NCBI GenBank assembly: GCA_020719005.1
Contig: DYQZ01000003.1
Span: forward strand, 1-38,723
Direction: 5' to 3'
Length of the DNA: 38,723 nucleotides
Source of the DNA: Candidatus Omnitrophus sp.
GTDB lineage: Bacteria; Omnitrophota; Gorgyraeia; Zapsychrales; Fredricksoniimonadaceae
This document shows positions 3 through 31,517 of the stretch, piece by piece. The notes beneath the pieces are model-generated. The model saw only the letters and a program-made list of their open reading frames with translations. It did no database searches and was not told the origin of the DNA. Position 1 is the stretch's first letter, and each line of letters starts with the position of its first letter. A program made the position numbers and the translations under genes.

Positions 3-1475
3 AAGACTTCTTCCACGAGCGTGCGCACGGATGAAACATCTCTCGGAAAAACATCGACCGTCACCATGTCAGAAAGCGGACGTTTTGATAACGGCCTTGA
101 TCTTACGGCGGAACGCTCTCTCGGCACAGGTGCCAATTTGGCAGAACGTCTGGAGAGTTATAAAGTAACGCGGGACCGTTCGGGGCTTAAGACAGAAACA
201 TCTTACGGACGGAAATACGCGGAAAATCAGATCGAGCGGACAGCCTCGAATATTTTTGGTCTTTCCGGTGACATCAATGATAAATGGGCGGCAAGCGCTT
301 CTCTTGAACAGGGTAACGTGCAGAATCCCGACGGATCAAAGTCAGATCGTATTGCGCTTGCGACCGGTCTTGGGTATCTTGAGAAAGACCCTGAGACGGG
401 CAAAGATGTGTTCAAAAGCTCAACCAAACTTGAAGTGCGCGCTGACCGCGGGGCGAATGACAAGGATCAGTTTTTGGTGTATCAGTCCATGGAAGGCAAG
501 GTCAGTGATGAAATGACCCTGTCTGCGAAATTGGAAGGGGCACAGACGAAGAATCTTGATACCAACAAGACAGAGGCCCAATACAAAGAGATCGTGCTTG
601 GTGCCGCGTATCGTCCGATCGCCGATGATCGTTTGAATTTATTCGGACGCTATACATACAAAGAAAATCAAAAGCCGGATGGCCAGGAAAATACGACCGG
701 CATCGAAGAAAGCAAGATGCATGTGGTCTCGGCGGATGCGGCTTATGACATCAATGATCAGTGGCAGATGGTCGAGCGCATCGCGGTCCGGATCATGGAA
801 GAGAAAGTGGAAGGGTTTGATTTTGCTAAGACCCACACGTGGCTCATGATCAACCGTTTGAATTATCGTGTTAACCAGGATTGGAAGATCGGCGGTGAAT
901 ATCGCGTCCTCACTCAACAGGAAGCCAAGGACCAGAAGCGCGGGTTCCTTTTTGAAGCGGTCCGCAGCGTCAATGATAATGTTGAAATGGGCATCGGGTA
1001 TAACTTCACGAATTTCATCGATGACCTGACCAATCTGGATTATACCGTTCAGGGGCCGTATATCCGCATGACTGGTAAGCTGTATGATCGAACGCCTGAA
1101 GAGCGCACACGGGCGCGTGCCAAGTGGCGTGAGCGCCGTATTGAGCAGTATGCGTGGAGAATGGTGCATGATGAATTCCGCAGAAAAGACAGCCCGCTTG
1201 TTCTCGAACTAAATCAGATGTATCAGATGGGCCGTGTCGCCTCTGACCTCAGCCGTTATGAAGAAGCACGCACTATTTATAAAGATGTGCTCCTCGTGAC
1301 CCAGATGATGTACGAGGAGGCCGCGCAGTTCGTGCGCCAGCACATTGCTTTTGAAGAAGAACTTTACAATGCGTCCCAGCGCGCCAGGGAATATTACGAT
1401 AAAGGCGAGTATTGGACCGCGAGGAAATTATGGGAGAAAATTCTGGAAGAAGCCCAAAAGGCTGTGCTAGAATAA
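3..1475 (+). CDS. C-terminal part of a large outer-membrane beta-barrel protein with a helical TPR-like tail (5' end missing)
   Basis: The frame is already open at the first complete codon (position 3), so this is the end of a longer gene; the GTG at 21 is only an internal codon. Residues up to about 360 (counted from that GTG) are alternating amphipathic strands separated by charged turns, ending with GYNFTNFIDDLTNLDY and a following GPYIRMTGKLYD. That signature is typical of barrels at the ends of very large surface proteins. Unusually, about 125 mostly helical residues follow the barrel. They are rich in Arg, Glu and aromatics and include SRYEEARTIYKDVLL and GEYWTARKLWEKIL, which look like TPR helices. 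This tail resembles the repeats of the large TPR protein encoded just downstream, so the two may interact. No substrate can be inferred. Confidence 0.75.
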   Translation, partial: KTSSTSVRTDETSLGKTSTVTMSESGRFDNGLDLTAERSLGTGANLAERLESYKVTRDRSGLKTETSYGRKYAENQIERTASNIFGLSGDINDKWAASASLEQGNVQNPDGSKSDRIALATGLGYLEKDPETGKDVFKSSTKLEVRADRGANDKDQFLVYQSMEGKVSDEMTLSAKLEGAQTKNLDTNKTEAQYKEIVLGAAYRPIADDRLNLFGRYTYKENQKPDGQENTTGIEESKMHVVSADAAYDINDQWQMVERIAVRIMEEKVEGFDFAKTHTWLMINRLNYRVNQDWKIGGEYRVLTQQEAKDQKRGFLFEAVRSVNDNVEMGIGYNFTNFIDDLTNLDYTVQGPYIRMTGKLYDRTPEERTRARAKWRERRIEQYAWRMVHDEFRRKDSPLVLELNQMYQMGRVASDLSRYEEARTIYKDVLLVTQMMYEEAAQFVRQHIAFEEELYNASQRAREYYDKGEYWTARKLWEKILEEAQKAVLE

Positions 1476-1622
1476 CTTCTGTTCCAGTTAATTATATAGT
1501 ATTTATAAATAGTCGTATCCGTATATAAAGTTTTTTCCGTCGGGTTTCGGTGTTATTTTCTTAATAAACGACCTTAAACTAAGGCCTGTGTCCGCCACGT
1601 GAGACCATCACTTTATTATATT
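1476..1622. other. AT-rich intergenic region, probable promoter region of the TPR-giant cluster
   Basis: About 147 bp separate the barrel gene from the best start of the TPR gene. The first half is very AT-rich and contains several TATAAT-like stretches (for example TATAAA near 1504-1509), but I see no convincing -35 box at the right spacing. I see no strong hairpin terminator and no clear Shine-Dalgarno before either candidate start (GTG 1599 or ATG 1623). Confidence 0.3.
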
Positions 1623-4600
1623 ATGACAATAAGAACGCGAACGATCCTGTCGATCTGCGCTGTTATTTTCCTCATTGCCATTGCTGACGCGCCGGCTCAA
1701 GTTCTTGTTGATGGTCAGCCCTCTGTTCTAAAAGAAGACAAAGCCCAGTCCAGTTATGTTTATGATCTGAAGGATCTCATTAAGAAATCCCGTGAGAACA
1801 TCAAGAATGTCAACGGGAAGATCAAGGAACAGGCTGTCATCAAGCGCAATCAAAAGCGCGAAGAAAAAGCCCGTGAATATTATGAGCAGGCGCAGAAGCT
1901 CGCCGAAGAAGGCCGCCTGGATGAATCCCGCCAGCTTTATGAAAAAGCTGTTCAGATCACTGAACATCCTGAGATGCAATACTACATCAAGGAAAGCGCC
2001 GCGCGCGGAAAAGCCCAGTCATCCGCACTTAAAAAAGAAGAAGAAGAGGCAGAACGCCGCCTGACCGATGAAGAGAAGAACAGTCTTCAGCGTGTTGAAG
2101 GGACATATCAGACAGCCGTTTCTTTATATAAGCAGTTGAAATTCCGTGAAGCCAAGGATGAATTTGAGTCCGTTGAGGAGATCTATCCGGGCTATAAAGC
2201 GGTCCGCAGTTATCTTCAGATCATTGAACAGGACATTGCCCAGGCCGATCAGACCGCAATGAAAGAACAGAAGAAAGAGATCGAGCGTCAACAGAAAGAC
2301 GTTGATATCGCGCGTCTTCGGGAAAAAGAACAGTGGCGTAAAGAGATCGAGAAAAAAGAACAGGCACGTGTTGACCAGCTGAAGAAGCAGGCTGAGGGCG
2401 TTTACATTGACGCCATGCAGTTATATAAAGAACGCAAATACGCGGCCGCAAAAGAAAAGTTCCAGGAAGTTGAATGGGTCGTTCCTGATTATAAAGCCAC
2501 GCGTGCATATTTGAATCGTATCGATCAGGATGTCGACGCAGATCGCCTACGCAGTGTCAAGGAGCGTGAAGAGGATCTGGAGAAACAGCGTTGGCAGGAA
2601 ACGCTGGAGGGTAGAAAACAGGAAGAGCTCCGCAAGAAAGCCTTTCAATTAAAAGAAAAAGACCGGTTGGCCGGGTTGGCCGAGCAGGCTGAATTTGTTT
2701 ATGTGGCGGCCGTGGCGCTTTTTGAAAAGAATCTTTTGGCTCAGGCCAAAGAAAAGTTCACGGAAGTCGAAACGATCTATCCCGAGTATAAGTCCACCCG
2801 TTCTTACTTAATGAAGATTGACCAGACCTTTGCCGGTGAAAAAGAACGTGAACTTGCCGCCCAGCGCAGCAGTGAGGAACAAAAGATCTGGGAAGAGGAA
2901 ATGAACCGCAAGAAAGCGGAAAAAGAATCTTTCCAACAGCGCGTGGATGAAGCGGATTCTTTTTATAATACCGCTTCTGATCTTTATAAAATGGGCCGCC
3001 TGATCGAAGCCAAGGAAAAATTCCTCGAAGTGGATCAGCGTGTTCCGGATTATAAATCCACACGTTCTCTCTTAAAGCGCATTGATGAGGATATTGAGCT
3101 TTTGGTCAAGACCCGTCGTCATGAAAGCGGTCTGGCGGATCAACGCGCCGAGATCGAGCGTTTGAAACAGCAGAAGACGGATGCTGAAAAGTTGTATACC
3201 GAGGCGATCGTGGCTTATGACGCCAAGGAATATGAAACAGCCCGTTCCAAGTTCGAGGGTGTGGAGAAGATCTTCGTCGATTATAAGAAGACAAAGTTTT
3301 ATATCGAGCGCATTGCTGAAGATATCAAGGCGCGGGAAGAGCAGCGTTTGTTGCAGGCAAAAGAAAAGACAGCAGAAGCGTCCTACACCGAGGCGATCGC
3401 GCTATATAACAGTGAGCAGTTTGATGAAGCCAAGAAGAAGTTCATTGAAGTCCAGGCCACGGTCCCTAACTATAAGACCGTTCCTGACTATCTCGACAAG
3501 ATCGATGATGATATTATCCGCAAGAAAGAAAAAGAATTGATCCGCCTGCGTGAGCTTCAGGCTGAAGGCCCTTATAATCAGGCCATGACCTCCTATCAGC
3601 AAGGGGATTTTGAGTCGGCCAAGCAAAAGTTCCTCGAAGTCACCGCGATCTTCCCTGAATATAAAGAGACAGGGAAGTATATCGCGCGTATCGACGATGA
3701 TATCGAACGTCAGAAAAAAGAGATCGATGAACGTAAACGCGCCGAAAGCGCTGACTCGAACTATACACAGGCGCTTGCTTTATATCAGGCCGGGGATTTC
3801 GTCTCTGCGAAAGAAAAGTTCGTTAAAACAGAGATCGCGTATCCCGACTACAAAGACACCTCCCGCTATCTTGCGCGCATCGACAGTGATATTGCATTAA
3901 AGAAACAGCAGGATGATCAAACGCGCCGTTCTCTCGAAGCAGATCCTGTTTATCTTCAGGCTTTGTCCCTTTATAAGGAACAGGAATTCTACGAAGCGAA
4001 GAAGAAATTCATGCAGGTGCAGGTTGTTTATCCGAACTATAAAGATACGGTTCTTTATTTATCCCGCATTGATGCTGATATGGCCAAGCGTGAGGATCGT
4101 ATCGAGCGTCAGGAAAAGAACCGCCGGGCAGATGCCCTTTATACCGAGGCCATGACGCTTTATGCTGAGCGCAAGTTCGTGGAAGCCAAAGAAAAACTTT
4201 TTCAGATCACGGCCATCGATCCGGAATACAAGAATACGCGTTCTTATTTATCCCGCATTGATAAGGATATCGTTGATGAGGTCTCCCGTCTTAATAAGGG
4301 AAGGCTTGAGGCTCAGGCTGAGGCTCCTTATGCAGAGGCGATCAATTTGTATCATGACCGTCAGTTCGAGGAAGCAAAGGTCAAATTCATGGAGGTCGGT
4401 AAGATCCTTCCTGACTATAAGAAGAGCAGGTCTTATCTTTCGAGGATCGATCAGGATATCCGCGACTTGAAGAAGGAAGCAGAAAAAGCACGCCTTAAGA
4501 AAGCCGAAGCTTTGTATCAGGAAGCGACCGTACTTGCCCAACAGAACAATGACGCGCTTGCGTTTGAGACGTTCTCACTGCTTGAGGGGATATATCCTGA

Positions 4601-7600
4601 CTATAAAGCGGTCCGGAAGAACATTGAGACGCTCCGTGTAAAATTGGTCAAGTCCGGCGTGAATGTTGATGCGATCGCCATCCGGTCTTCTGTCAAAGCA
4701 CAACAAGTTACCCTGCCTAAGACGGCGGATGCGGCGGTATTGACATTATATAAAGAGGCTGTTGAACTTTATAAAAACAAGAATTATGAGGATGCCAGGG
4801 CTAAATTCCAAGAACTTGAAAAGACGTCAGTCAACTACCGTTCGACCCGTAAATACCTGACATCCATCGCGGCATTATTAGATCCCGCTACACCCGTAAA
4901 ACAAGAAGTAGAAAAGCCAAAAGCGCTTGTTGTTTCCTCCAAGATGCTGTCTGTTCCGGCGGCCAAGAAAAGCATTGCTAATGAGGAGTCCTTACTCGCA
5001 AAGGCCGAACCTCTTTATATCGAAGCGGTCGCTCTTTATAAGGAAGGGAAGCATGCGGATGCAAAGACGCAATTTGAAGCCGTTTCCGGTGTGATCAAGA
5101 ATTATAAATCGACCAGAACCTATCTTAAGATGATCGATGAGGCTAAAGGCAAAGAAAATGTTCCGGCTGTTGTCACCTCTGTCACGACAACCCGCCTGAG
5201 TGATCAGGATGAAGCCGCGGTCCGTGAATTGGCTGCGCGTTCAGCCGCGATCTATCGTCAGATCAGGACGCTTTCTGAAGATCGGAACCTTGCTTCGACC
5301 GAGCGCACGTTCTCCCGTGTTGACAAGATCCTTGCCAATATCGAAGACGAACAAAAGCGCATGGCTCTTGATATCGAACGCCGTCAGAAAGAAGAGCAGG
5401 CGGAAGTTGAACGTGAGATGCGGCGCAAGAAGCTTGAAGAGCAGACAAAGAAGACCCAGGTTGTGGTCGCAGAAAAACAAGCAAAGCAGGACGCTGTTGA
5501 AAAGAAACAGCAAGAGGAACGTGAGGCCAGGCTTAAGGCCGAAGAACAGTCGCGGTTGGCACAGCAGAAATTTGAATCCATGTATAAAGAGGCTATGAAT
5601 GCCTATCGTCTTAAAGATTACAAGAAAGCCCGTGCTCAATTTGCTGAGCTTGATAAAGCGAAGCCGGGTTATAAAGATGTTTATAATATGCTGATGCACA
5701 GCGAACGGAAAGCGGCAGAGGCTGATCTCGTCGAAGCTGAAAACAAGGATCGTGGGGAGTTGATGCGTTTGGCGGAGGAAGCGAACGCGTTGAATATGAA
5801 GATCCTGGAGCTTTCACAACAGCGCAATTATGAAGAAATAAAGATCAAGTTCTCAGATCTTGAAGGTTTGCTCAAACAGATCCAGACATTAAGAAGTGCC
5901 ATGATAAGCCGTCGTGATGACTGGTCATCACGCTGGCGCGGACGGATCTCTATTCAGCCCAACAAGAATAATCAGGCGATGGCGAAAGAGACCAAAGCAT
6001 TGACACCTGAAACTGATGGCCGCACCTCAAAAGGGCAGGCCAGGATGCTTTTTAGAGAAGGACAACAGCTGTACAGCAGTCGTCACTTTGCTGAGGCTAA
6101 GGTCAAGTTCATGGAAGCCGCCAGTCTTGATGCAAATCTTAAGGCCGCTCTCACCTATGTGACCCGGATCAATCGTTTGCTGGATCAGCGTGATTTTGAG
6201 AATCAACGCGTCCATAACAAGGATATCCGTCGAGGAATGGAAAAGAAACGGGAAGCCAAAGAAGGCCTGACAGCCGAATTATCCGCTGATCAGCGCTTGT
6301 CCCAAGAGGAGCGTTCACGCAAACTTTTGGAAGATGGCCGTGCTTTATATGGCGAAAAGCGTTATCGCGAAGCGCGTATCAAGTTCGAAGAATTGGCGCA
6401 GATAGGGAATGCTGATCAAGAAAAGAAGGCCACTCGGTACCTTAAACTTACTGAAGATGGCATTGCCTTTGAACGTCAGAAAGTTGAAAAAGAAAAACAC
6501 GCTGAGGAAGAGCGTTATTTGCGTGAACGTCTGGATCAGCTTCGGATCGAACAGCAGGACGTCGAGCGTTCTAAAGACAAACAGCAGCGTGCGACAGAGA
6601 TAGTGACACAGGAGTTGCGCGGATTTCAGACCCAACGTCAGCAAGACCTTCGTGAGATCGAGCAGGCCAATAGGGCTGAACGTGAGAGAATGCTTTCTGA
6701 CAAAGAAAAACTTACCGATGTCGCTGATGATACGGAAGATAAAGAACGGGCAAAATTCGACAAGCTGGCGCGTAAAGAAAAGATGCCTAAAGAAGGCCAG
6801 GTCATTCTGCCGGCGCCGGTTGTGGCCGTTCCGCCTCCTCTTCCGGAGAAGGTCAAAGAAACACCGCAACCAAAACCGGTCGTGGTCAAGAAGACTGTTG
6901 TAAGACATCAGGAGCCAGCGATCGATCTTGAAAAGTTCCGCCGTGAAAAGAAGAAGATCGAGCATGAAGATAAGCGGCTTAGAGAGAAGGATGCAGCGTT
7001 AAGAAAGTCATTGCAGCGTGAACAGGAGAAGGCGGTTTCTTGTTTACGTGCCAAGGAAGAGCTTCTTAAGAAAGAAGAAGCGTTGATAATTGTTCCCAAG
7101 CCCGTGGTCTCGGCACAACCGGTCACTGTTGATCAAAAGAGCGAAATAAAGAAAGAAACGCCCATCGTTGTTAAGGCAACGGCGATCGCGGCCGAAAAAG
7201 ATAAGACGGACCTATTGACTCAGGCGGCCATCGAAGAAAGACGGATGCTGGCAGAACAGCGCAGCGCCATTCATAAGGATTTTGAGGCGGGCGTGGACAG
7301 GCTTTATAACGATGCTGTTGTTCTTTATCAGGCGCGTCAGTATGAAGATGCGTATGAGGATTTCATCCAGGTAAATAAAATGATCAAGGAATATAAAAAG
7401 ACTGCTTATTATTTAAAGAAGATCAACAAGATGCCGAAAAAGAATGAAACACGTCTTTTACTACAGCCTGTCGTTGTCCCGAAAAGCAAGGACGAGACGA
7501 AAAAGCCAGAAGTGCCCAAGCCTGTTGAAGAGCCCAAGCCCGTCGATTCATATAAGCCGGTCATGGCTTCTCCCGCCCAAAGTGCAGAGCGTTCAGCGAC

Positions 7601-7646
7601 TGTTACGAATGTGCTGGATCTCTTTGATCCGAATGTCAATAAATGA
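1623..7646 (+). CDS. Giant periplasmic TPR-like repeat protein (about 2,007 aa)
   Basis: I prefer ATG 1623 over GTG 1599 because it puts a clean signal peptide at the N-terminus (MTIRTRTILSICAVIFLIAI, then ADAPAQ with cleavage near APA/Q). The mature protein carries about 19 repeats of 45-50 conserved residues separated by charged linkers. Each unit reads roughly Y-x-x-A-x-x-L-Y, then F-x-E-A-K-x-K-F-x-E-V, then P-x-Y-K-x-T-R-x-Y-L-x-R-I-D-x-D-I. The A-x-x-L-Y and E-A-x-x-x-F helices are TPR-like; the third helix with RIDxDI is characteristic of this protein. Long Glu/Lys/Arg coiled-coil segments lie in the second half. Two Pro-Lys-rich, TonB-like linkers (near residues 1725-1765 and 1945-1985) flank the last repeat. 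It is probably a periplasm-spanning scaffold. It heads a cluster with a coiled-coil membrane protein and an AsmA-like protein. The exact role is unknown. Confidence 0.85.
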   Translation: MTIRTRTILSICAVIFLIAIADAPAQVLVDGQPSVLKEDKAQSSYVYDLKDLIKKSRENIKNVNGKIKEQAVIKRNQKREEKAREYYEQAQKLAEEGRLDESRQLYEKAVQITEHPEMQYYIKESAARGKAQSSALKKEEEEAERRLTDEEKNSLQRVEGTYQTAVSLYKQLKFREAKDEFESVEEIYPGYKAVRSYLQIIEQDIAQADQTAMKEQKKEIERQQKDVDIARLREKEQWRKEIEKKEQARVDQLKKQAEGVYIDAMQLYKERKYAAAKEKFQEVEWVVPDYKATRAYLNRIDQDVDADRLRSVKEREEDLEKQRWQETLEGRKQEELRKKAFQLKEKDRLAGLAEQAEFVYVAAVALFEKNLLAQAKEKFTEVETIYPEYKSTRSYLMKIDQTFAGEKERELAAQRSSEEQKIWEEEMNRKKAEKESFQQRVDEADSFYNTASDLYKMGRLIEAKEKFLEVDQRVPDYKSTRSLLKRIDEDIELLVKTRRHESGLADQRAEIERLKQQKTDAEKLYTEAIVAYDAKEYETARSKFEGVEKIFVDYKKTKFYIERIAEDIKAREEQRLLQAKEKTAEASYTEAIALYNSEQFDEAKKKFIEVQATVPNYKTVPDYLDKIDDDIIRKKEKELIRLRELQAEGPYNQAMTSYQQGDFESAKQKFLEVTAIFPEYKETGKYIARIDDDIERQKKEIDERKRAESADSNYTQALALYQAGDFVSAKEKFVKTEIAYPDYKDTSRYLARIDSDIALKKQQDDQTRRSLEADPVYLQALSLYKEQEFYEAKKKFMQVQVVYPNYKDTVLYLSRIDADMAKREDRIERQEKNRRADALYTEAMTLYAERKFVEAKEKLFQITAIDPEYKNTRSYLSRIDKDIVDEVSRLNKGRLEAQAEAPYAEAINLYHDRQFEEAKVKFMEVGKILPDYKKSRSYLSRIDQDIRDLKKEAEKARLKKAEALYQEATVLAQQNNDALAFETFSLLEGIYPDYKAVRKNIETLRVKLVKSGVNVDAIAIRSSVKAQQVTLPKTADAAVLTLYKEAVELYKNKNYEDARAKFQELEKTSVNYRSTRKYLTSIAALLDPATPVKQEVEKPKALVVSSKMLSVPAAKKSIANEESLLAKAEPLYIEAVALYKEGKHADAKTQFEAVSGVIKNYKSTRTYLKMIDEAKGKENVPAVVTSVTTTRLSDQDEAAVRELAARSAAIYRQIRTLSEDRNLASTERTFSRVDKILANIEDEQKRMALDIERRQKEEQAEVEREMRRKKLEEQTKKTQVVVAEKQAKQDAVEKKQQEEREARLKAEEQSRLAQQKFESMYKEAMNAYRLKDYKKARAQFAELDKAKPGYKDVYNMLMHSERKAAEADLVEAENKDRGELMRLAEEANALNMKILELSQQRNYEEIKIKFSDLEGLLKQIQTLRSAMISRRDDWSSRWRGRISIQPNKNNQAMAKETKALTPETDGRTSKGQARMLFREGQQLYSSRHFAEAKVKFMEAASLDANLKAALTYVTRINRLLDQRDFENQRVHNKDIRRGMEKKREAKEGLTAELSADQRLSQEERSRKLLEDGRALYGEKRYREARIKFEELAQIGNADQEKKATRYLKLTEDGIAFERQKVEKEKHAEEERYLRERLDQLRIEQQDVERSKDKQQRATEIVTQELRGFQTQRQQDLREIEQANRAERERMLSDKEKLTDVADDTEDKERAKFDKLARKEKMPKEGQVILPAPVVAVPPPLPEKVKETPQPKPVVVKKTVVRHQEPAIDLEKFRREKKKIEHEDKRLREKDAALRKSLQREQEKAVSCLRAKEELLKKEEALIIVPKPVVSAQPVTVDQKSEIKKETPIVVKATAIAAEKDKTDLLTQAAIEERRMLAEQRSAIHKDFEAGVDRLYNDAVVLYQARQYEDAYEDFIQVNKMIKEYKKTAYYLKKINKMPKKNETRLLLQPVVVPKSKDETKKPEVPKPVEEPKPVDSYKPVMASPAQSAERSATVTNVLDLFDPNVNK
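2092..7410 (+). repeat. About 19 TPR-like protein repeats within the giant periplasmic protein
   Basis: Repeat units of roughly 45-50 conserved residues, with linkers giving a spacing of about 65-75 residues, recur from residue about 155 onward; a more diverged unit precedes them. The first dozen are nearly regular, each ending in a variant of SYLxRIDxDI. Later units are further apart, more diverged and separated by coiled coil. DNA identity between neighbouring units is low, so the repeats are old at nucleotide level. Confidence 0.8.
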
Positions 7647-7689
7647 TGTCTCATAGATCATGGCGGGGATCTTGTCAGGAGAGGATATA

Positions 7690-8622
7690 ATGCGTTGGAT
7701 AGTGTATGCCCTTCTTGCTGTGACTGCTGTTGTGTTCTTCACCAACCGTATTGCCGGTCATGGGAACGGGAGTTTAGCGGGGATCTTTTCACGCGGCCTC
7801 CATCAGGATCAGGTCAAGATGGGCGTTGCCGAAACAGAAAGAGAACGTCGCGAGCTTGATGAACAGATGTTCAATAAGAAATATGATAAGCCTCGTCGTT
7901 CTTTATTTGCGAATGAGAAAGAGGATCTGACGATCAGGGCTTCTTTATGGGAACCCCGACTGCAGGCATTGAATCGTGCCGTTGATTCGGATGTGCTGGA
8001 TCTTTTGGGAAGATTAAAAGGGGACATAGCGCTCTTGGATGAAATGGTGCGCACAAAGTCCATTCCGGAAATAGCTCTCGAGCAGGCTGAAAAAACACGC
8101 GTTCTATGGGGTAAGATCAAGACTATATACGGTGTAGGTGAGCGTGGTATTGGGGAGGCCTCCTCTCGCATTCCATCTGTGGCGACCCCGGTATGCTTGT
8201 CTGATATGAATGCCTCGGATGTAAAGGCCTCTGACGGGAATGATAAGATTTCTGCCGGGCATATTGATGAGTGTCGTCAGAAGGCTATGCAGACGCTTCT
8301 TGCGCTTGATGAGAAAATGCATATGATCGGTGAACAGCTTGGAGATGAACGTCTGAAGGAGCGGGGCAGTACAGCTGAGCGGATGGAAAAGCATCGGGAA
8401 CTCGTCGAGCGTGTTACGCGTATGGCAGAAAAAGGCTATCAAGTGCGTCCGACAAAGGATATATCTGACCAGATCGAACGTTTACGTGAACAGCAAGAGC
8501 GCAGCAAAGATCAAATACAAGAAATGCAGCGTCGTAATATTATTGACACTGCTTCAAGGGATAAACTGCAGGCCATGCAAGAGCGCATGGAGCGGATGAG
8601 AGAGAAAGCATTCAAGGAGTGA
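7690..8622 (+). CDS. Membrane-anchored coiled-coil protein of unknown function (310 aa)
   Basis: ATG 7690 is chosen over the upstream in-frame ATG 7660 because an AGGAGAGG Shine-Dalgarno (about 7677-7684) sits at good spacing before it. The product then starts with a single membrane helix (residues 2-18, MRWIVYALLAVTAVVFF). The rest is charged and helical: a region around residues 80-140 and a C-terminal coiled coil (about 240-310) rich in Arg, Glu, Gln and Met. A less ordered stretch with several Ser and two Cys lies between them. I recognise no catalytic motif or named family. It lies between the TPR giant and an AsmA-like protein, with a stop that abuts the next start region, so it is likely part of the same envelope assembly, with the coiled coil in the periplasm or cytoplasm. 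Confidence 0.75.
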   Translation: MRWIVYALLAVTAVVFFTNRIAGHGNGSLAGIFSRGLHQDQVKMGVAETERERRELDEQMFNKKYDKPRRSLFANEKEDLTIRASLWEPRLQALNRAVDSDVLDLLGRLKGDIALLDEMVRTKSIPEIALEQAEKTRVLWGKIKTIYGVGERGIGEASSRIPSVATPVCLSDMNASDVKASDGNDKISAGHIDECRQKAMQTLLALDEKMHMIGEQLGDERLKERGSTAERMEKHRELVERVTRMAEKGYQVRPTKDISDQIERLREQQERSKDQIQEMQRRNIIDTASRDKLQAMQERMERMREKAFKE

Positions 8623-8627
8623 TCAAC

Positions 8628-10499
8628 ATGAAGTTCGTTAAGATATTTTTGATCGTATTAGCCGCTATTATTATCTTGATATCAGCGGGGTTGTTTTATT
8701 TTATTAAAACAGTTGATGTGAATAAGTATGTCCCTCAGATTGCCTCAGAAGTGAAAAAAGCGACGGGGCGCGGTCTTGTCATCGGGAAAGTCGGCATTGA
8801 GCTTTCATTCTCCAGGGGGCTTGTCCTGGATATCAATGGCATCACTCTTTCTGATGATCCGGCATTCTCATACAAACCGTTTGTCACGATTGATCGTGTT
8901 TCTTTGGGGTTGAGCCTTCGTCCTCTTATTATGGAACGCAAGATCCAGATAGCCCAAGTGACCATTACGCAGCCTAAGGTCGTGGTGATCCGTAACAAGG
9001 AAGGTCAGATCAATGCGGCATCCATGGCACAGCAGCCGGTCAAGGTCAATACTGATCCTGTGTATGATGAAGTTCACAAAGAAATGGCATTGCCCATTCT
9101 GCTCGTCGATGATCTGTTTGTTTCTAATGCCAGCGTGACCTATATTGATCAGACGTTCCCTGAGGAAATGAAGGTCGTTGTTGATAAGGCGGATATAACG
9201 ATCAAAGATCTTTCGTTAACAACACCATTTTCTTACGATCTTAAATTAGCAGCTTTTTCCAATGAACAGGATGTTGAGATCAAAGGGCGCGCACGTATTG
9301 ATCTTAAGGCGCAGGCTCTGGGCATTGAAGGGCTGTTGGTCGGTGTTGAGCTTGGGGAAGTGTCCATTGAGCAATTAACACAGTCGCTCGCTATGTTGAA
9401 GCCTGCTGGTTTGAAGGTCATGAAAGGCCGTGTTGATGTCGTGGTATCTGATGCCAGGGCAAGCGCCAAGGGCCTTGAGGATTTTCATGGTGAAGCCCGT
9501 ATGAAGAATGGATATATCGCCTCCACACTTTGTCCGATCCCGGCCGAAGATATAAAATTCCTGGTAAAGTTCGATCCTAAGAAGCTGTTCATTGATAGTC
9601 TAACAGCTGTGGTGGCTGGAGGGAATGTCGACGTGAATGGTATTGTTGATCAATATATGAGCCTTCCGGCCGTTGTCTTGAAAGCAAAAGTGGCTGATCT
9701 TCAGGTAAGAAATATTACGACAGCTTACAATTTACCGGTCAATGTTTCGGGCAAACTTACGGCTGAGGCGAACACCAGTTTTGCCGGGTTTACACCTGAT
9801 GGCATGCTGGTTTCCTTAAGAGGGGATCTTCAGGCAGACTTAAAAGAGGGTGTTGTTGAAGGGGAGAATTTCTTAAAGACAACCCTTGGGAATATACCCA
9901 TGCTGCCGAATTTGTTACAGGTTGTCTATGCGGATCTTCCTGCTGAAACAAGGGAAGACATCGACAAAGGAACAACGGTCATTGAAAGTGCCAATCTGAC
10001 TGCGCGTATGGAAGGTAAGGCTGTGACGGTCCGCGAGGCGAATATGACAAGCCGTGATCTGGCTGTTTCCGCGCGCGGGGTAGTGACGATGCTGGATAGT
10101 GTTAACATGAATGCGGATGTTGTGATGTCAAAAGAACTTTCCGCTGTTTTAACGAGAAAGGCTTCTGATCTGACGGCGCTTTCGAATGATGAAGGTAAGA
10201 TCTATATCCCGATAATGATATCCGGTCCTATCTTGAAACCACAAATACAGCCTGATATTGAATATCTTTCCAAAAAGTTGCTTATGGGGCGTGGCAAGAA
10301 AGAGCTTCTTTCTGTGATCGAAAAGAACCCTGAAGTGCAGGGGGTGTTGAATTCCCTGTTCGGTGGTTCTCGTGGACCGTCACAAGAGGCGGCTGCGGAC
10401 GGCTCTTCGAATACCTCTGGAACATCGTCGGAAGGCGATACGCAGACACAGAATAAGAAAACCGTGGACGCCTTGTTGAATTTGATATCAGGCAAATGA
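8628..10499 (+). CDS. AsmA-family envelope protein (623 aa)
   Basis: The start is ATG 8628, preceded by AAGGAG at 8614-8619; a GTG at 8619 is in frame but overlaps that site. An N-terminal membrane helix (residues 4-26) is followed by the typical AsmA N-domain: DVNKYVPQIASEVKKATGR, then a strand pattern ending in ISLSDDP-like and SLRPLIMERKIQIAQVTI motifs. A long all-beta region follows. The C-terminal AsmA-like region contains the recurrent pattern of Leu/Val strands and small turns (around residues 380-560). Ser/Gly/Thr-rich sequence near 585-610 precedes a short amphipathic end. AsmA proteins are inner-membrane anchored, periplasmic and linked to lipid transport or outer-membrane assembly; that role is inferred from the family. 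It fits a cluster of envelope scaffold proteins. Confidence 0.85.
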   Translation: MKFVKIFLIVLAAIIILISAGLFYFIKTVDVNKYVPQIASEVKKATGRGLVIGKVGIELSFSRGLVLDINGITLSDDPAFSYKPFVTIDRVSLGLSLRPLIMERKIQIAQVTITQPKVVVIRNKEGQINAASMAQQPVKVNTDPVYDEVHKEMALPILLVDDLFVSNASVTYIDQTFPEEMKVVVDKADITIKDLSLTTPFSYDLKLAAFSNEQDVEIKGRARIDLKAQALGIEGLLVGVELGEVSIEQLTQSLAMLKPAGLKVMKGRVDVVVSDARASAKGLEDFHGEARMKNGYIASTLCPIPAEDIKFLVKFDPKKLFIDSLTAVVAGGNVDVNGIVDQYMSLPAVVLKAKVADLQVRNITTAYNLPVNVSGKLTAEANTSFAGFTPDGMLVSLRGDLQADLKEGVVEGENFLKTTLGNIPMLPNLLQVVYADLPAETREDIDKGTTVIESANLTARMEGKAVTVREANMTSRDLAVSARGVVTMLDSVNMNADVVMSKELSAVLTRKASDLTALSNDEGKIYIPIMISGPILKPQIQPDIEYLSKKLLMGRGKKELLSVIEKNPEVQGVLNSLFGGSRGPSQEAAADGSSNTSGTSSEGDTQTQNKKTVDALLNLISGK

Positions 10500-10545
10500 C
10501 GGTTTTTATCCTTTTTATCGTAGGATAATGGTTTTTATCACCGTC
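10498..10545 (+). other. Nested inverted repeat after the AsmA-like gene, possible weak terminator or mRNA hairpin
   Basis: GACGGT (10498-10503) pairs with ACCGTC (10540-10545), and inside it TATCCT (10507-10512) pairs with AGGATA (10522-10527). The decamer GGTTTTTATC also occurs twice (10501-10510, 10530-10539). There is no clean U-tract directly after the stem, so termination is uncertain. Confidence 0.3.
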
Positions 10546-10646
10546 GAAATTTTCTCTTGTCATTCCTTAAGTCGGGGTCTATACTAGGAAAAATTTTCAG
10601 TCTTTCTTCTTATAACAACCAAAAATATAAGGTAGATACAGCGCGT

Positions 10647-11372
10647 ATGTCAAACGAAGCCAAGAAAAAAAAGACCTGGAGACTCATCTCAAGCATTGTG
10701 ATCGGGATCCTTGTGGTGGCATCGATCGTTTTGTGGGTGCTTAATTACCGCACACTTGAAACGATCACGCAGATGTCTGACAAGACGGCGACGACCCAGG
10801 CGGTCAACACACGCTATTATATGAATGAGTTCAAGGTGACGAAGATCGCCCTTGATGAAACGACGATCAAGCTGGAAGAAACGACCCGCGAGCTTGAGGC
10901 CGCGAATGCCGAACTTTCTACGACACGTACCGAACTTTCTTCTGTTCAGCAATTGAATGATCAATTCCGCACGGATATTCAGTCATTGGAGCGTTATAAA
11001 GCAAAAGCCATGGCTAAAGGTGAAGCACTTGAGACGATGATCAACAGTTTCAAGAAGAAGAACAAGGAAATGGACATCCAATTGCAAACCGTGCGCAAGG
11101 AACTTTCCACATTCCAGCCAGAGATCGGGGATGCCAATGAAGGCCGTTCTAAAGTTGCCTTGTTCAAGAATCATATCCGGATGGTAAAAAAGAATATGGG
11201 CGCCTTGAAAAAGCAGGCTCTTCAGCTGAAGATCGCGGCCCAGAAAGAACGCGACCGCTTGGAATCGTTGTACGGCAACGGCGGGTTTATGGTTAAAGAA
11301 GGGCAGAATAAATCGATCACTTCTTTTGACCAGAAAAAGGTCGAGATCAATGTGAAATTCATTAATAAGTAG
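10647..11372 (+). CDS. Membrane-anchored periplasmic coiled-coil protein (241 aa)
   Basis: The frame is open from a TTG at 10557, but ATG 10647 gives a sensible product: a short Lys-rich cytoplasmic start (MSNEAKKKKTWR), one membrane helix (about residues 15-35), then about 200 residues outside the membrane. Residues 60-190 have heptad-like Leu/Ile/Glu spacing, including repeated T-R-E-L and T-R-T-E-L segments, consistent with a long coiled coil. The C-terminus has a short predicted beta segment (KKVEINVKFINK). I recognise no family. A strong terminator follows directly, so this is the last gene of the cluster that starts with the giant TPR protein. Confidence 0.75.
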   Translation: MSNEAKKKKTWRLISSIVIGILVVASIVLWVLNYRTLETITQMSDKTATTQAVNTRYYMNEFKVTKIALDETTIKLEETTRELEAANAELSTTRTELSSVQQLNDQFRTDIQSLERYKAKAMAKGEALETMINSFKKKNKEMDIQLQTVRKELSTFQPEIGDANEGRSKVALFKNHIRMVKKNMGALKKQALQLKIAAQKERDRLESLYGNGGFMVKEGQNKSITSFDQKKVEINVKFINK

Positions 11373-11394
11373 TTTTTATAGGTTTGGTGCGGTG

Positions 11395-11433
11395 AAGAAC
11401 GAAGTTGTCACATAACAACTTCGTTCTTTTTTT
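11395..11433 (+). terminator. Strong rho-independent terminator
   Basis: A perfect 14-bp stem (AAGAACGAAGTTGT at 11395-11408 with its complement at 11415-11428) closes a 6-nt loop and runs into seven consecutive T residues (11427-11433). It ends the cluster upstream and lies just before the metallopeptidase gene. Confidence 0.92.
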
Positions 11434-11451
11434 GTAGTGAGTTCTTATCTT

Positions 11452-12183
11452 ATGATGATAATTGATATTCCTTCTGGTCCATTGAATGTAGCGGTCATTC
11501 GTTCACGCCGGCGGACATCTCAGATATCTATTGGGCAGGATGGCCAGGTTGTTTTTAGAGCGCCTGCAGCGCTCACAGATGAGCGTATCGAACGCTTTAT
11601 CCGTCAAAAGACCGCATGGATCGAGCGTGTTCGTAACAAGATGCTGTCGCGTTCTGTAATACGCGCGCTGCCTGAATATAAAGACGGCGGTGTATTTTTT
11701 CTTTTGGGAGAACAGAGACGGCTGTGTATCCAAAAAGGGACGTTGGCATGGCCCAGATTTGAACCAACGTTATCAGGATGGGATCTTTTTGTCCCCACTG
11801 ATTGGGATGAAGAAACGGTCTCTTTGCAAGCGAAAAGATCGTTGGAGTTGTGGTATCGCAGGGAAGCTGAGACGTATTTTCCCTACCGTCTGGCTTTCTG
11901 GTCAGCGCGCATGGCGATCGTGATGCCCACGCTAACACTGCGAGTTCAACAAAGGCTGTGGGGTAGTTGCAATAGCCGCCGCCATGCTGTCAATTTGAAC
12001 AGAAAACTGATCGCTTTCCCTGTCGATGTCATTGATTATGTGGTGATCCATGAGTTGTGTCATTTACGTTTTGCGGATCATTCCGCGCGGTTCTGGAAAG
12101 AAGTAATGGTCTGGTGCCCTTTGTTCCGTCAGCATCGTGAATGGTTAAAGAAGGATGCATTAAGATATGTGAGCCCTCTATGA
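11452..12183 (+). CDS. YgjP-like (DUF45) zinc metallopeptidase
   Basis: The zinc-binding signature VIHELCHLRFADHSARFWKEV is near the C-terminus (broken here as HELCH, then HSARFW): two His and Glu of HExxH, with a third His downstream. This is the hallmark of the YgjP/DUF45 family. Upstream, QQRLWGSCNSRR matches the family's conserved GSC segment, and the N-terminus carries the RRRTSQISI strand usual in these proteins. The length (about 243 aa) is normal. An in-frame GTG at 11437 is possible but lies just after the terminator; ATG 11452 or 11455 is more likely. The stop overlaps the next ATG (ATGA), so the DUF167 gene is translationally coupled. The cytoplasmic substrate is unknown. Confidence 0.85.
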   Translation: MMIIDIPSGPLNVAVIRSRRRTSQISIGQDGQVVFRAPAALTDERIERFIRQKTAWIERVRNKMLSRSVIRALPEYKDGGVFFLLGEQRRLCIQKGTLAWPRFEPTLSGWDLFVPTDWDEETVSLQAKRSLELWYRREAETYFPYRLAFWSARMAIVMPTLTLRVQQRLWGSCNSRRHAVNLNRKLIAFPVDVIDYVVIHELCHLRFADHSARFWKEVMVWCPLFRQHREWLKKDALRYVSPL

Positions 12184-28273: not shown

Positions 28274-29854
28274 ATGAGAACGAGAAAGATTTTCTTTTTC
28301 CTTTTAATAAGTATTTTTACCGCAGTATTTTTTCCGTGCGTTTCCGAAGCCAATAATCTTTCTGTTAGTAATGTGCGTGTAGGTTCTCGCAATCCTGCTG
28401 CAAAAACTTTTTCAGTCCTTTTCGATATTTCCTGGGAAAATTCGTGGCGTAATAAGATCAATCACGATGCCGCCTGGCTTACCATCCGTTTGCAAGATGC
28501 CCAAACATCTTCCGCCAGTAAAAAGCTCGGTCTTATCACCACTTCCGGTTTAAATCCAGCCGGTTCTTCAATAGGAAGCAATTCCTCCGCAGAGATCTAT
28601 GGCCCTTCTGATAGAACGGGGTTCTTTTTACGTCGGACATCCAGTGCGCAGGTCGGGGTTTTCAATGCTCAAAGCGTCATGGTCACAGTCGATTATTCAA
28701 GTGCAGGGTTCTTGGAAAGTTCAGAAATATCCGTATCTGTCATAGGTATGGAAATGGTCTATGTTCCCCAAGGTTCTTTCTACGCCGGGGATCACGCTAC
28801 AAGTGCCGCTTCTTTAAAACAGGGAGCGGCGGATACGGATCCCTGGTTCATTCAGAATGAGAACGGCATTAATGTCACTGCTGCGGCGAATGATGGTTTT
28901 TATTACACTTCTGCCGGCAATCCCGAGGAGTTTGCCACAGGTTCTTCTTTTGTTATTCCTGGTGCTTATCCCAAGGGATACAAAGGGTTTTATTCCATGA
29001 AGTATGAAGTAACAGAAGGGCAGTGGGTGGATTTTGTGAATTCTTTAGATGTGAATGCACGCGAAAATAGGGATCTCACTGATGCGGCGCATAAGAATGC
29101 AGATTCAGTATTTAAGCGCAATACTATTTCTTGTTCAGGGTCTCCGGTAGTGTGTGTAACATCGCGTCCTGCGAGGGCATTGACGTATTTGAATTGGATG
29201 GACCTTTGTGCTTTTCTGGATTGGGCCGCACTTCGTCCGATGACTGAACTGGAATTTGAAAAAACAGCACGAGGCCCGTATCTGCCGTTACGTGGTGAGT
29301 ATGCGTGGGCATCTAAGATCGCTATCGCTGCCGCTGTTCTTTCTGGTGCAGAGGATGGCGCTAATGAAATAGTGACAACAGTCAATGCGAATGCTCATTT
29401 CTCAGGGGTCACGATCTCCAGCGGAGATGCTGCAAACGGCCCTGAATATCAACAAGGACCTCTGCGGGCCGGGATCTTCGCCACCGGTTCTTCTGATCGC
29501 ATTTCCTCAGGTGCTGGTTATTATGGTTCGATGGATCTTTCGGGTAATGTCAGTGAATTTGTTGTTAGTGTCGGATCATCCGCTGGTATTGGGTTTTCAG
29601 GCATGCATGGTGATGGTTATTTGGCTACAGCTTCTGGGTTCGAAGGTAATGCTAATGTTGCCGGATGGCCTGGAATGGATGTTGATGCGTCAAAAGGTGT
29701 TGTGATCGCCTCAGGTTCTGGATTGCGCGGCGGATCCTGGATGGACCCTGACGGACGTCTTCGCGTTTCTGATCGTCAGAGCGCGGTATATGGTATCATC
29801 GATGCAACTGCTTATGATGGCGGTCGTGGTGCTCGCTCCTACGACGGCGAATAA
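28274..29854 (+). CDS. Secreted SUMF1-fold (formylglycine-enzyme-like) protein, paralogue 1
   Basis: AAAGGAG precedes the ATG. The signal peptide (to about residue 26, CVSEA/N) is followed by a beta-domain of about 125 residues (strands with WENSWRNKINHDAAW and a FFLRR motif). Then comes a SUMF1 domain: GMEMVYVPQGSFYAGD, FYSMKYEVTEGQWVDFVN, RALTYLNWMDLCAFLDWA, LRPMTELEFEKTARG, MDLSGNVSEF and LRGGSW near the end. The catalytic Cys pair of true FGE (after the GGSW region) is missing: the sequence there is MDPDGRLRVSDRQSA. So the domain is unlikely to make formylglycine; a binding or structural role is more likely. Four other Cys occur elsewhere. It ends a few residues after GARSYDGE. Confidence 0.85.
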   Translation: MRTRKIFFFLLISIFTAVFFPCVSEANNLSVSNVRVGSRNPAAKTFSVLFDISWENSWRNKINHDAAWLTIRLQDAQTSSASKKLGLITTSGLNPAGSSIGSNSSAEIYGPSDRTGFFLRRTSSAQVGVFNAQSVMVTVDYSSAGFLESSEISVSVIGMEMVYVPQGSFYAGDHATSAASLKQGAADTDPWFIQNENGINVTAAANDGFYYTSAGNPEEFATGSSFVIPGAYPKGYKGFYSMKYEVTEGQWVDFVNSLDVNARENRDLTDAAHKNADSVFKRNTISCSGSPVVCVTSRPARALTYLNWMDLCAFLDWAALRPMTELEFEKTARGPYLPLRGEYAWASKIAIAAAVLSGAEDGANEIVTTVNANAHFSGVTISSGDAANGPEYQQGPLRAGIFATGSSDRISSGAGYYGSMDLSGNVSEFVVSVGSSAGIGFSGMHGDGYLATASGFEGNANVAGWPGMDVDASKGVVIASGSGLRGGSWMDPDGRLRVSDRQSAVYGIIDATAYDGGRGARSYDGE

Positions 29855-29888: not shown

Positions 29889-31517
29889 ATGATTAAAAAA
29901 ATAAAATTATTGGTTTTCTTTTGTTTTACGCTTGTAAGTCCTTCGTTTGCCAATGATCTACGTCTCAGTGCTTTAGATGTCTTTGTCACTGATGCGGCGA
30001 GTGACAAAATAACGCTGACATGCGATCTTAAACAGGCTAACAGTTGGCGTAATACTGTTTCACATGATGCGGCATGGGTCTTTGTCAAATATTCGATCGA
30101 TGGTGGACAAACCTGGCATCATGCTTCTATGGGCGGTGTTGGTCTTAATCCAGCAGGTTTCTCGATGCCTGTGAATTTTGAAGCAGTTGTCCCGCAAGAC
30201 TTGAAAGGGTTCTTTTTCCGTCGTTCTGCAGCAGGAACAGGAGCTGTTGAAGCCAAAGGGCTTAAGTTCGTGTGGAATTATGGTCTGGACGGATTATCGG
30301 ATGAGACGGCACAGGCCGCAAATACACTGATCCGTGTCTACGGATTTGAGATGGTTTATATTCCGGAAGGTGCTTTCTTTGCCGGGGATGGGGCAAGCGC
30401 TTCAGAATATCGTTTTAAGCAAGGGGCCGGGGATGATGAGCCATGGTATATCACCAGTGAGAATGCGATCAGTACGGCTAATGTTGCTTCGAATGGATTT
30501 TATTATCAAAGTACGGGAGCTCCAGGAGAGAACGCGTCTGGAGATGCGTTCCTTTTGCCTAATTCTTTTCCCAAAGGATATCGTGGTCTTTATTTAATGA
30601 AATACGAATTGACGGAGGGTGAATGGGTTTCATTTTTTAATACTTTATCTTCTGCTGCGCGCGTTAATCGCGATATCACCAATTCCATTGAAGGCGGCAA
30701 GAATTCAGATGGAGTAGTGAATCGAAATACCATTGCCTGGGATAATACAGAACCAAATACCACAGCTACGACAGCACGTTTTGCACGTGCAATGACGTAT
30801 GTTTCATGGCCTGATGCCGCAGCTTTCGCGGATTGGGCAGGACTTCGTCCGATGACAGAATTTGAATTTGAGAAAGCCGCTCGAGGTGTGGACGTTGTTC
30901 CTGTTGCTGATGAATTTGCCTGGGGAACATCTGCTTATGACGCAGCTGGCGCAGAAGAAATATTTCCTCCGAATCAGGATGAGAATGGCACAGAATCCAT
31001 TTTTGATAGCACCGCTAATTTGAATCGTAACACAACGGGATGGACAACGGGCGATGGCCGCGTCGGAGGAATGGCCGAAGGGCAAAAAGGCGCGCTGCGT
31101 GCGGGTATTTTTTCTGAGAATGCAACAAGCCGTGTCACGAGTGGCGCGGGATATTATGGCAATATGGAACTTTCAGGGAATGTGGCAGAACCTGTTGTGT
31201 CGATCGGACGCGCAGAGGGACGTCAATTTCTGGGGTCTCATGGCGATGGTGAGGTGAATTCTCTTACCGGTTTTGAAGGCAACGCAACCAATGCTGATTG
31301 GCCCGGCATAGACGCAGGTGATGCACGTCGCGGGATCTCCGGCACTAAAGGTATTGGTTATCGCGGCGGTGATTTTCAGTCAGCGAGCCTTCGTCATTTT
31401 CAAGTATCGTCTCGTTCTTTTGGGGTGAAAGATCCTGATAGCGTAGGATTAAAAGAACGTTTTGATGTTTCAGCTGGTGTGGTGTATGGTGCGCGTTTCG
31501 CGCGGACCGCTCCGTAA
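29889..31517 (+). CDS. Secreted SUMF1-fold protein, paralogue 2
   Basis: This 542-aa protein has the same layout as its upstream neighbour: signal peptide (LVSPSFA/N at about residue 21), a beta-domain with ANSWRNTVSHDAAWVF and FFFRRSAAGTG, then a SUMF1 domain (GFEMVYIPEGAFFAGD, YLMKYELTEGEWVSFFN, RAMTYVSWPDAAAFADWAGL, LRPMTEFEFEKAARG, YGNMELSGNVAE, IGYRGGDF). The catalytic Cys pair is again absent: after RGGDF comes QSASLRHFQVSSRSFG. The mature protein has almost no Cys (one in the N-terminal domain). No good Shine-Dalgarno is visible before ATG 29889, so it may rely on readthrough from the upstream gene, 34 nt away. The two genes look like a tandem duplication that has since diverged. Confidence 0.85.
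   Translation: MIKKIKLLVFFCFTLVSPSFANDLRLSALDVFVTDAASDKITLTCDLKQANSWRNTVSHDAAWVFVKYSIDGGQTWHHASMGGVGLNPAGFSMPVNFEAVVPQDLKGFFFRRSAAGTGAVEAKGLKFVWNYGLDGLSDETAQAANTLIRVYGFEMVYIPEGAFFAGDGASASEYRFKQGAGDDEPWYITSENAISTANVASNGFYYQSTGAPGENASGDAFLLPNSFPKGYRGLYLMKYELTEGEWVSFFNTLSSAARVNRDITNSIEGGKNSDGVVNRNTIAWDNTEPNTTATTARFARAMTYVSWPDAAAFADWAGLRPMTEFEFEKAARGVDVVPVADEFAWGTSAYDAAGAEEIFPPNQDENGTESIFDSTANLNRNTTGWTTGDGRVGGMAEGQKGALRAGIFSENATSRVTSGAGYYGNMELSGNVAEPVVSIGRAEGRQFLGSHGDGEVNSLTGFEGNATNADWPGIDAGDARRGISGTKGIGYRGGDFQSASLRHFQVSSRSFGVKDPDSVGLKERFDVSAGVVYGARFARTAP

Follow-up and report, generated by a model that had tools for sequence, protein, structure and literature searches.

A conserved Omnitrophota envelope locus pairs a giant, tailed barrel-like protein with a giant TPR protein

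The window, by which we mean the whole analysed stretch of 38,723 bases, comprises bases 1-38,723 of contig C50 (46,235 bases) from a genome of 1.44 Mb that is 85.5% complete. Its first part is occupied by five open reading frames on the forward strand (3-1475, 1599-7646, 7660-8622, 8619-10499 and 10557-11372; P0001 to P0005). These are followed by a strong terminator, a 15-pair hairpin and then a T run at 11394-11429, which was the top site of our terminator scan. The frames and the terminator were thus recovered as the first-pass annotation had described them. Searches of literature titles and passages returned no recognisable description of such a locus. The features are as follows:

3-1082, forward strand: C-terminal part of the ~1,000-residue beta (outer-membrane barrel-like) domain of the giant P0001, judged from the 5′-open frame at the contig edge, relatives and a model
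1083-1475, forward strand: 130-residue helical (TPR-like) tail of P0001, after a beta-signal-like segment; absent from tail-less homologues and seen in a model
1599-7646, forward strand: TPR giant P0002, 2,015 aa, with an N-terminal signal peptide and ~20 TPR units; likely start ATG 1623
7660-8622, forward strand: P0003, one N-terminal TM helix and a charged coiled-coil-like region; a fast-evolving inner-membrane protein
8619-10499, forward strand: P0004, AsmA-family (Pfam PF05170), one N-terminal TM; likely start ATG 8628
10557-11372, forward strand: P0005, TM and coiled coil; likely start ATG 10647; a conserved but separable neighbour
11394-11436, forward strand: intrinsic terminator-like hairpin with T run, from the terminator scan

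The distribution of these genes was followed in 92 genomes and in the best 80 of at least 528 named loci. The phylum of each relative was taken from its record title. Most titles named Omnitrophota, and the few that deviated, such as that of L070 (Ca. Elulimicrobium), were presumed to be mislabelled.

P0001 had been annotated as a barrel protein. A barrel-like domain is indeed present, but the protein is not complete: the frame, open at its 5′ end at the contig edge, covers no more than the final 490 residues of a giant. An open ORF of 2,524 aa at the end of another contig of this genome, C19, matches residues 285-2869 of the orthologue L070, and P0001 matches the remainder of L070 from about residue 2879. 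Since the two frames cover successive parts of one orthologue, the giant gene here has ~3,000 codons and was split by the assembly. A profile of the whole beta-domain matched a second place in the window's own genome, the end of C19, and 36 of the 92 relatives at E 1e-10. Relatives of P0001 itself were found in 37 of the 92 genomes, with 45-64% identity for most full-length matches, and lay within ORFs of up to 3,476 aa. Seven orthologues from the same family of Omnitrophota (L070-L076) are intact, with both ends within the contig, and measure 3,338-3,454 aa. The giant is built, in this order, from a signal peptide, a long beta-helix, DUF11/Ig-like domains, the ~1,000-residue beta domain and the 130-residue helical tail. 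The complete giants begin with a hydrophobic stretch that resembles a signal when judged by eye, and Pfam places Big_6, CarboxypepD_reg, DUF11 and SpaA-type domains in the middle of L070. We also noted a barrel-domain fragment inside a 6,976-aa open frame of a relative (G026:C65:34478-34861) and, in other lineages, a Y1_Tnp (IS200-like) gene directly upstream of the giant barrel gene, as if domesticated (L080, L084, L086, L113).

Both large domains of L070 were modelled with AlphaFold. The model of residues 34-1150, based on an 18-row alignment, contained many short strands (mean pLDDT 89.0, pTM 0.57), and structural comparisons returned mostly beta-helices, including EtpA (Z 14.7, rmsd 5.1, 280 aligned), the HMW1 secretion domain (Z 13.9, rmsd 3.9, 233 aligned) and antigen 43 (Ag43; Z 13.1, rmsd 4.1, 253 aligned). 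Foldseek gave no match to this model at E 0.001 or better; its best E was 0.057 and its top matches were again mostly beta-helices. The model of residues 2216-3367, based on a 60-row alignment (pLDDT 74.6, pTM 0.66), showed 48 strands of at least 8 residues up to its residue 1023, followed by four helices. Only 33 of the 48 strands lay within blocks of pLDDT 70 or more, and the model was weak at residues ~534 to 752. The Foldseek matches to it were nearly all outer-membrane barrels, among them TonB receptors, LptD and SprA, with TM-scores of 0.33 or less. Porin alignments covered the model from residues ~13-25 to ~1022, with 6eus as the top row (Z 13.7, rmsd 6.7, 249 aligned). These models predict a beta-helix and a barrel fold for the giant. 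By itself, the beta-domain is also present in records whose titles name, besides other groups, Proteobacteria, Planctomycetota and Desulfuromonadales.

What distinguishes the giant at its C-terminus is the tail. Among 38 ORFs of tail-less homologues, 35 have F, Y, W, L or I as their final residue, immediately behind the last strand, while in the tailed proteins the same final-strand segment is internal and ~130 residues come after it. The description of this tail as TPR-like could be upheld in part: the AlphaFold model of L070 shows four helices there, but the tail falls below every Pfam cut-off, scoring 15 bits against the cut-off of 27 for the TPR family PF07719. A search of solved structures with the barrel profile gave weak matches to TPR structures at the tail only (E 3e-4). 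Homology of the tail to the TPR units of P0002 was considered and rejected, the BLAST E being 0.2 and an HMM of the P0002 unit finding no match in P0001. Outer-membrane barrels end on the periplasmic side, and the tail should therefore be periplasmic, where it may serve as a docking module.

The TPR assignment of P0002 itself was confirmed by Pfam (TPR_2 E 8e-25; PF07719 85.3 bits, cut-off 27), and an HMM built from its own repeats detected 20 units after residue 160 and a marginal one at 90-115. To describe how this gene and the tail are distributed, we compared the best 80 of at least 528 named loci, comprising 37 with a tail and 43 without a full tail. A gene with TPR units came next in 31 of the 37 tailed loci. 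In five more (L097, L099, L101, L103 and L108) the next gene resembled the N-terminus of P0002 by BLAST, in places where that gene is short or the contig runs out shortly afterwards; only L110 was a tailed locus with no TPR gene next to it. Not one of the 43 loci without a full tail had a TPR-unit gene next, 18 of them having no nearby ORF, and the same was true for the 13 of them from Omnitrophota. Fisher's test for tail versus adjacent TPR giant, from which the truncated locus L105 was excluded (leaving 42 of the 43), gave p 3e-16 overall and 8e-8 against the 13 Omnitrophota loci, values to be read for related loci: because related lineages have tail and TPR giant in common, the 80 loci do not count as independent. 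In a separate set of relatives, 30 of 31 loci had the TPR giant directly after the barrel; the one that did not, L069, has 676 bases of contig left, in which no ORF was found. Given the TPR gene next to 31 of 37 tailed barrels (plus the five) and to none of the 43 others, we conclude that the barrel tail and the TPR giant form a specific pair, in which the latter would be the periplasmic partner of the former. TPR giants also occur with no barrel adjacent, in at least four genomes where the upstream sequence is present (L157, L161, L163 and L165) and probably in several other loci (L172, L185, L187 and L189), which points to a separate function of the TPR protein.

The reading that we prefer, with a probability of roughly 0.58, is that of an autotransporter-like surface giant whose barrel sits in the outer membrane and whose periplasmic tail is docked to a TPR rod. 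The giant, about 3,000 aa here, would be exported through its signal peptide. Its beta-helix and DUF11/Ig-like domains would be displayed at the surface, as in adhesins, while the very large beta-barrel of ~1,000 residues would anchor it in the outer membrane and the 130-residue helical tail would project into the periplasm. The TPR giant, 2,015 aa long, could then form a long periplasmic rod that binds the tail and links the surface protein to a deeper element of the envelope. The order of domains, the pairing of the two genes and the co-occurrence of tail and TPR giant are observed; that the giant is displayed at the surface, that its tail is periplasmic and directly touches the TPR giant, and that the protein serves adhesion is what we infer.

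A type Va autotransporter has an N-terminal signal peptide, a beta-helical passenger and a barrel of ~12 strands at its extreme C-terminus. With autotransporters and two-partner adhesins (Ag43, EtpA, HMW1) the giant shares the signal peptide and the long parallel beta-helix, and with autotransporters also an outer-membrane beta-domain in the same chain. In contrast to theirs, its beta-domain spans ~1,000 residues with ~48 predicted strands, is internal and is followed by a helical tail; moreover, up to E 0.01 no autotransporter barrel model was among the Pfam matches of the giant. The giant is not a classical autotransporter but probably works like one. The same ~1,000-residue beta-domain, at about 27-34% identity, is found in OmpA-containing barrel proteins of Proteobacteria (for example Microbulbifer L139). 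These differ in having OmpA-type stretches upstream of the beta-domain (in L139), no tail, so that the barrel ends the protein, and a separate gene of ~1,900 aa upstream.

It had been proposed that a single machine, reaching from the outer to the inner membrane, is made up of the barrel, the TPR giant, AsmA and the two coiled-coil anchors, a reading that we consider unlikely. The gene order behind this proposal is conserved, so that a lack of conserved order, which would have refuted the proposal, was not observed. Of the 31 loci compared, nine did not extend far enough to include AsmA and P0005; in 18 of the remaining 22 the order barrel, TPR giant, AsmA, P0005 was kept. The TPR giant followed the barrel in all 22, AsmA was present in 21 (all except L065) and P0005 in 19; in L045, L046 and L049 (genera g5 and g6), P0005 was missing from the locus and found on another contig. 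Envelope signals on all parts would likewise fit a single machine.

AsmA-family membership of P0004 was borne out by PF05170 (82.2 bits against a cut-off of 29.8, E 5e-23), and AsmA of this type was detected in 73 of the 92 relatives. For comparisons at the level of the order we used 81 genomes, 35 of them with the barrel, from presence lists compiled by hand. All 35 genomes with the barrel had AsmA, as against 36 of the 46 lacking it (Fisher p 0.004), which favours a joint machine. AsmA and P0005 nevertheless stay close to each other in L158-L160, where barrel and TPR giant are absent, and we regard the association of AsmA with the barrel as intermediate. The two proteins described as single-helix coiled-coil proteins, P0003 and P0005, do each have one hydrophobic segment near the N-terminus, but the start given for P0005, TTG 10557, is less likely than ATG 10647, from where its relatives align. 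A weak promoter-like site lies ahead of P0005 at 10557-10585; such sites are only mildly in excess. For P0003, no relatives were found by sequence in the 91 other genomes, and this lack of conservation speaks against the single machine. Twelve proteins of the same family at the P0003 position each had a single strong hydrophobic segment, which lay close to the N-terminus in 11 of them, and a charged C-terminus; their similarity was weak. Several other genera and families carry a DUF255/thioredoxin-type protein between TPR giant and AsmA that is absent here (for example L080:15909-18161, L088:18051-20210, L045, L046, L047 and L049).

P0005 is separable from the barrel. Relatives of it were present in 75 of the 92 genomes and, within the order, in 33 of 35 genomes with the barrel and 40 of 46 lacking it (Fisher p 0.46). 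The barrel-TPR-AsmA block and P0005 lie on different contigs in g5, g6 and g8. We inspected 20 neighbourhoods of P0005, 17 from barrel-less genomes and three from genomes with the barrel elsewhere, and an HMM search found no barrel in any of them. In 19 of the 20, YqeY followed P0005 directly or one gene on, and the remaining one stops at a contig edge. P0005 keeps YqeY and a phosphorylase-like gene as neighbours where barrel, TPR giant and AsmA are absent. This similar frequency with and without the barrel, together with neighbours of its own, demonstrates that P0005 is not specific to the barrel. The proposal of one five-gene chain is borne out in its conserved order but weakened by P0005, whose distribution is independent of the barrel, and by P0003, which lacks sequence relatives in the 91 other genomes. 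We conclude that the conserved envelope locus is real and that its specific core is the tailed giant surface barrel plus the TPR giant. AsmA and the small TM-coiled-coil proteins are conserved neighbours that perhaps contribute lipid supply and inner-membrane contacts, not obligate parts; for AsmA, P0003 and P0005 these roles, like the step to the inner membrane, are tentative. AsmA is, as a Pfam family, shared with the AsmA/YhdP/TamB-type lipid-transport proteins, and its joint action with the barrel is putative.

Some relatives of P0005 have a PilZ domain at the N-terminus (Pfam E 8e-7 in L113 and 9e-11 in L158), and others have a PilZ ORF just upstream (L035 and L150) with the RxxxR and [D/N]xSxxG motifs, which are those of c-di-GMP binding. 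P0005 itself had no Pfam match to PilZ (PF07238), a six-frame motif scan of 10201-11800 was empty, and PilZ is also missing at the loci of genus g7; elsewhere in this genome, six PilZ matches were found. P0005 seems to belong to a unit of its own, one that is usually linked to PilZ (c-di-GMP). A c-di-GMP-gated adhesin is known in LapA/LapD, which operates with the LapG protease and the LapD receptor. One might imagine a trans-envelope adhesion machine new to biology in which a single-chain outer-membrane barrel of more than 40 strands with a beta-helix stalk is mechanically tethered by its tail to a rod of 20 TPR units. In most relatives it would also be connected with a PilZ-TM-coiled-coil sensor of the inner membrane, and cytoplasmic c-di-GMP would thereby control surface attachment of Omnitrophota; we regard this as a long shot.

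Rather improbable, too, is a large uptake or secretion channel, in which the barrel would move macromolecules, as do SprA and SusC-like systems, with the TPR giant as periplasmic receptor. The predicted size of the barrel and the TonB receptors, LptD and SprA in the Foldseek list are in line with this, as is a weak match of P0002 to NCBIfam NF052542 (Mul1B family putative transporter subunit). That match, however, reached 42.6 bits against a cut-off of 75 and covered the TPR stretch only, the TM-scores were at most 0.33, and the Pfam matches of P0001-P0005 included no energy-coupling or substrate-binding family. Least probable is that unrelated envelope genes merely share one slowly rearranging neighbourhood, for although YqeY, ORF260, the phosphorylase-like gene and, in many relatives, glycine-cleavage genes downstream are equally syntenic, the upstream flanks vary between lineages, the barrel-TPR-AsmA block is intact beside other downstream genes in g5 and g6 (L045, L046 and L049), and the association of tail and TPR giant cuts across loci, including those of Omnitrophota that lack a full tail.

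SprA of the type 9 secretion translocon, a very large single-chain barrel, offers a further comparison for the predicted barrel of the giant. It appeared in the Foldseek list (8gl6 and 6h3j, TM 0.11-0.19), while the barrel-profile search of solved structures gave no sequence match to it. In the accessible text, the SprA barrel is described with 36 strands (PMC9581022). Should our strand count hold, the barrel described here would exceed that number and raise the question of how the barrel-assembly machinery can build it. The uncultured Omnitrophota are considered to live on or in company with other cells, according to the accessible text of a study that also reports giant ORFs of >20 kb in this phylum, with few annotated domains and a suggested role in adhesion (PMC10066038). 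The gene described here comes from the same phylum as those ORFs but differs from them, measuring ~9-10 kb and showing good conservation within an order. The main text of that study does not contain the terms TPR, AsmA and operon. A conserved giant, probably a surface protein with a periplasmic partner of its own, offers a concrete candidate for the means of attachment in Omnitrophota, and the tail and the TPR giant constitute a directly testable binding pair.

Further along the window, at 31668-38723 on the forward strand and continuing in L054, lies a giant ORF with 157 [IVML]NW motifs, 150 of whose 156 spacings are exactly 13 residues, with a consensus like GINWTDIxxLSxA. A second giant ORF with this NW repeat, at 47% identity, lies in the remainder of the contig. 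A toxin function for the NW-repeat giant was rejected, as its toxin-like Pfam matches were short repeat matches. Just before it, two ORFs (28274-29854 and 29889-31517) look, by reading only, to be of the formylglycine-generating-enzyme type.
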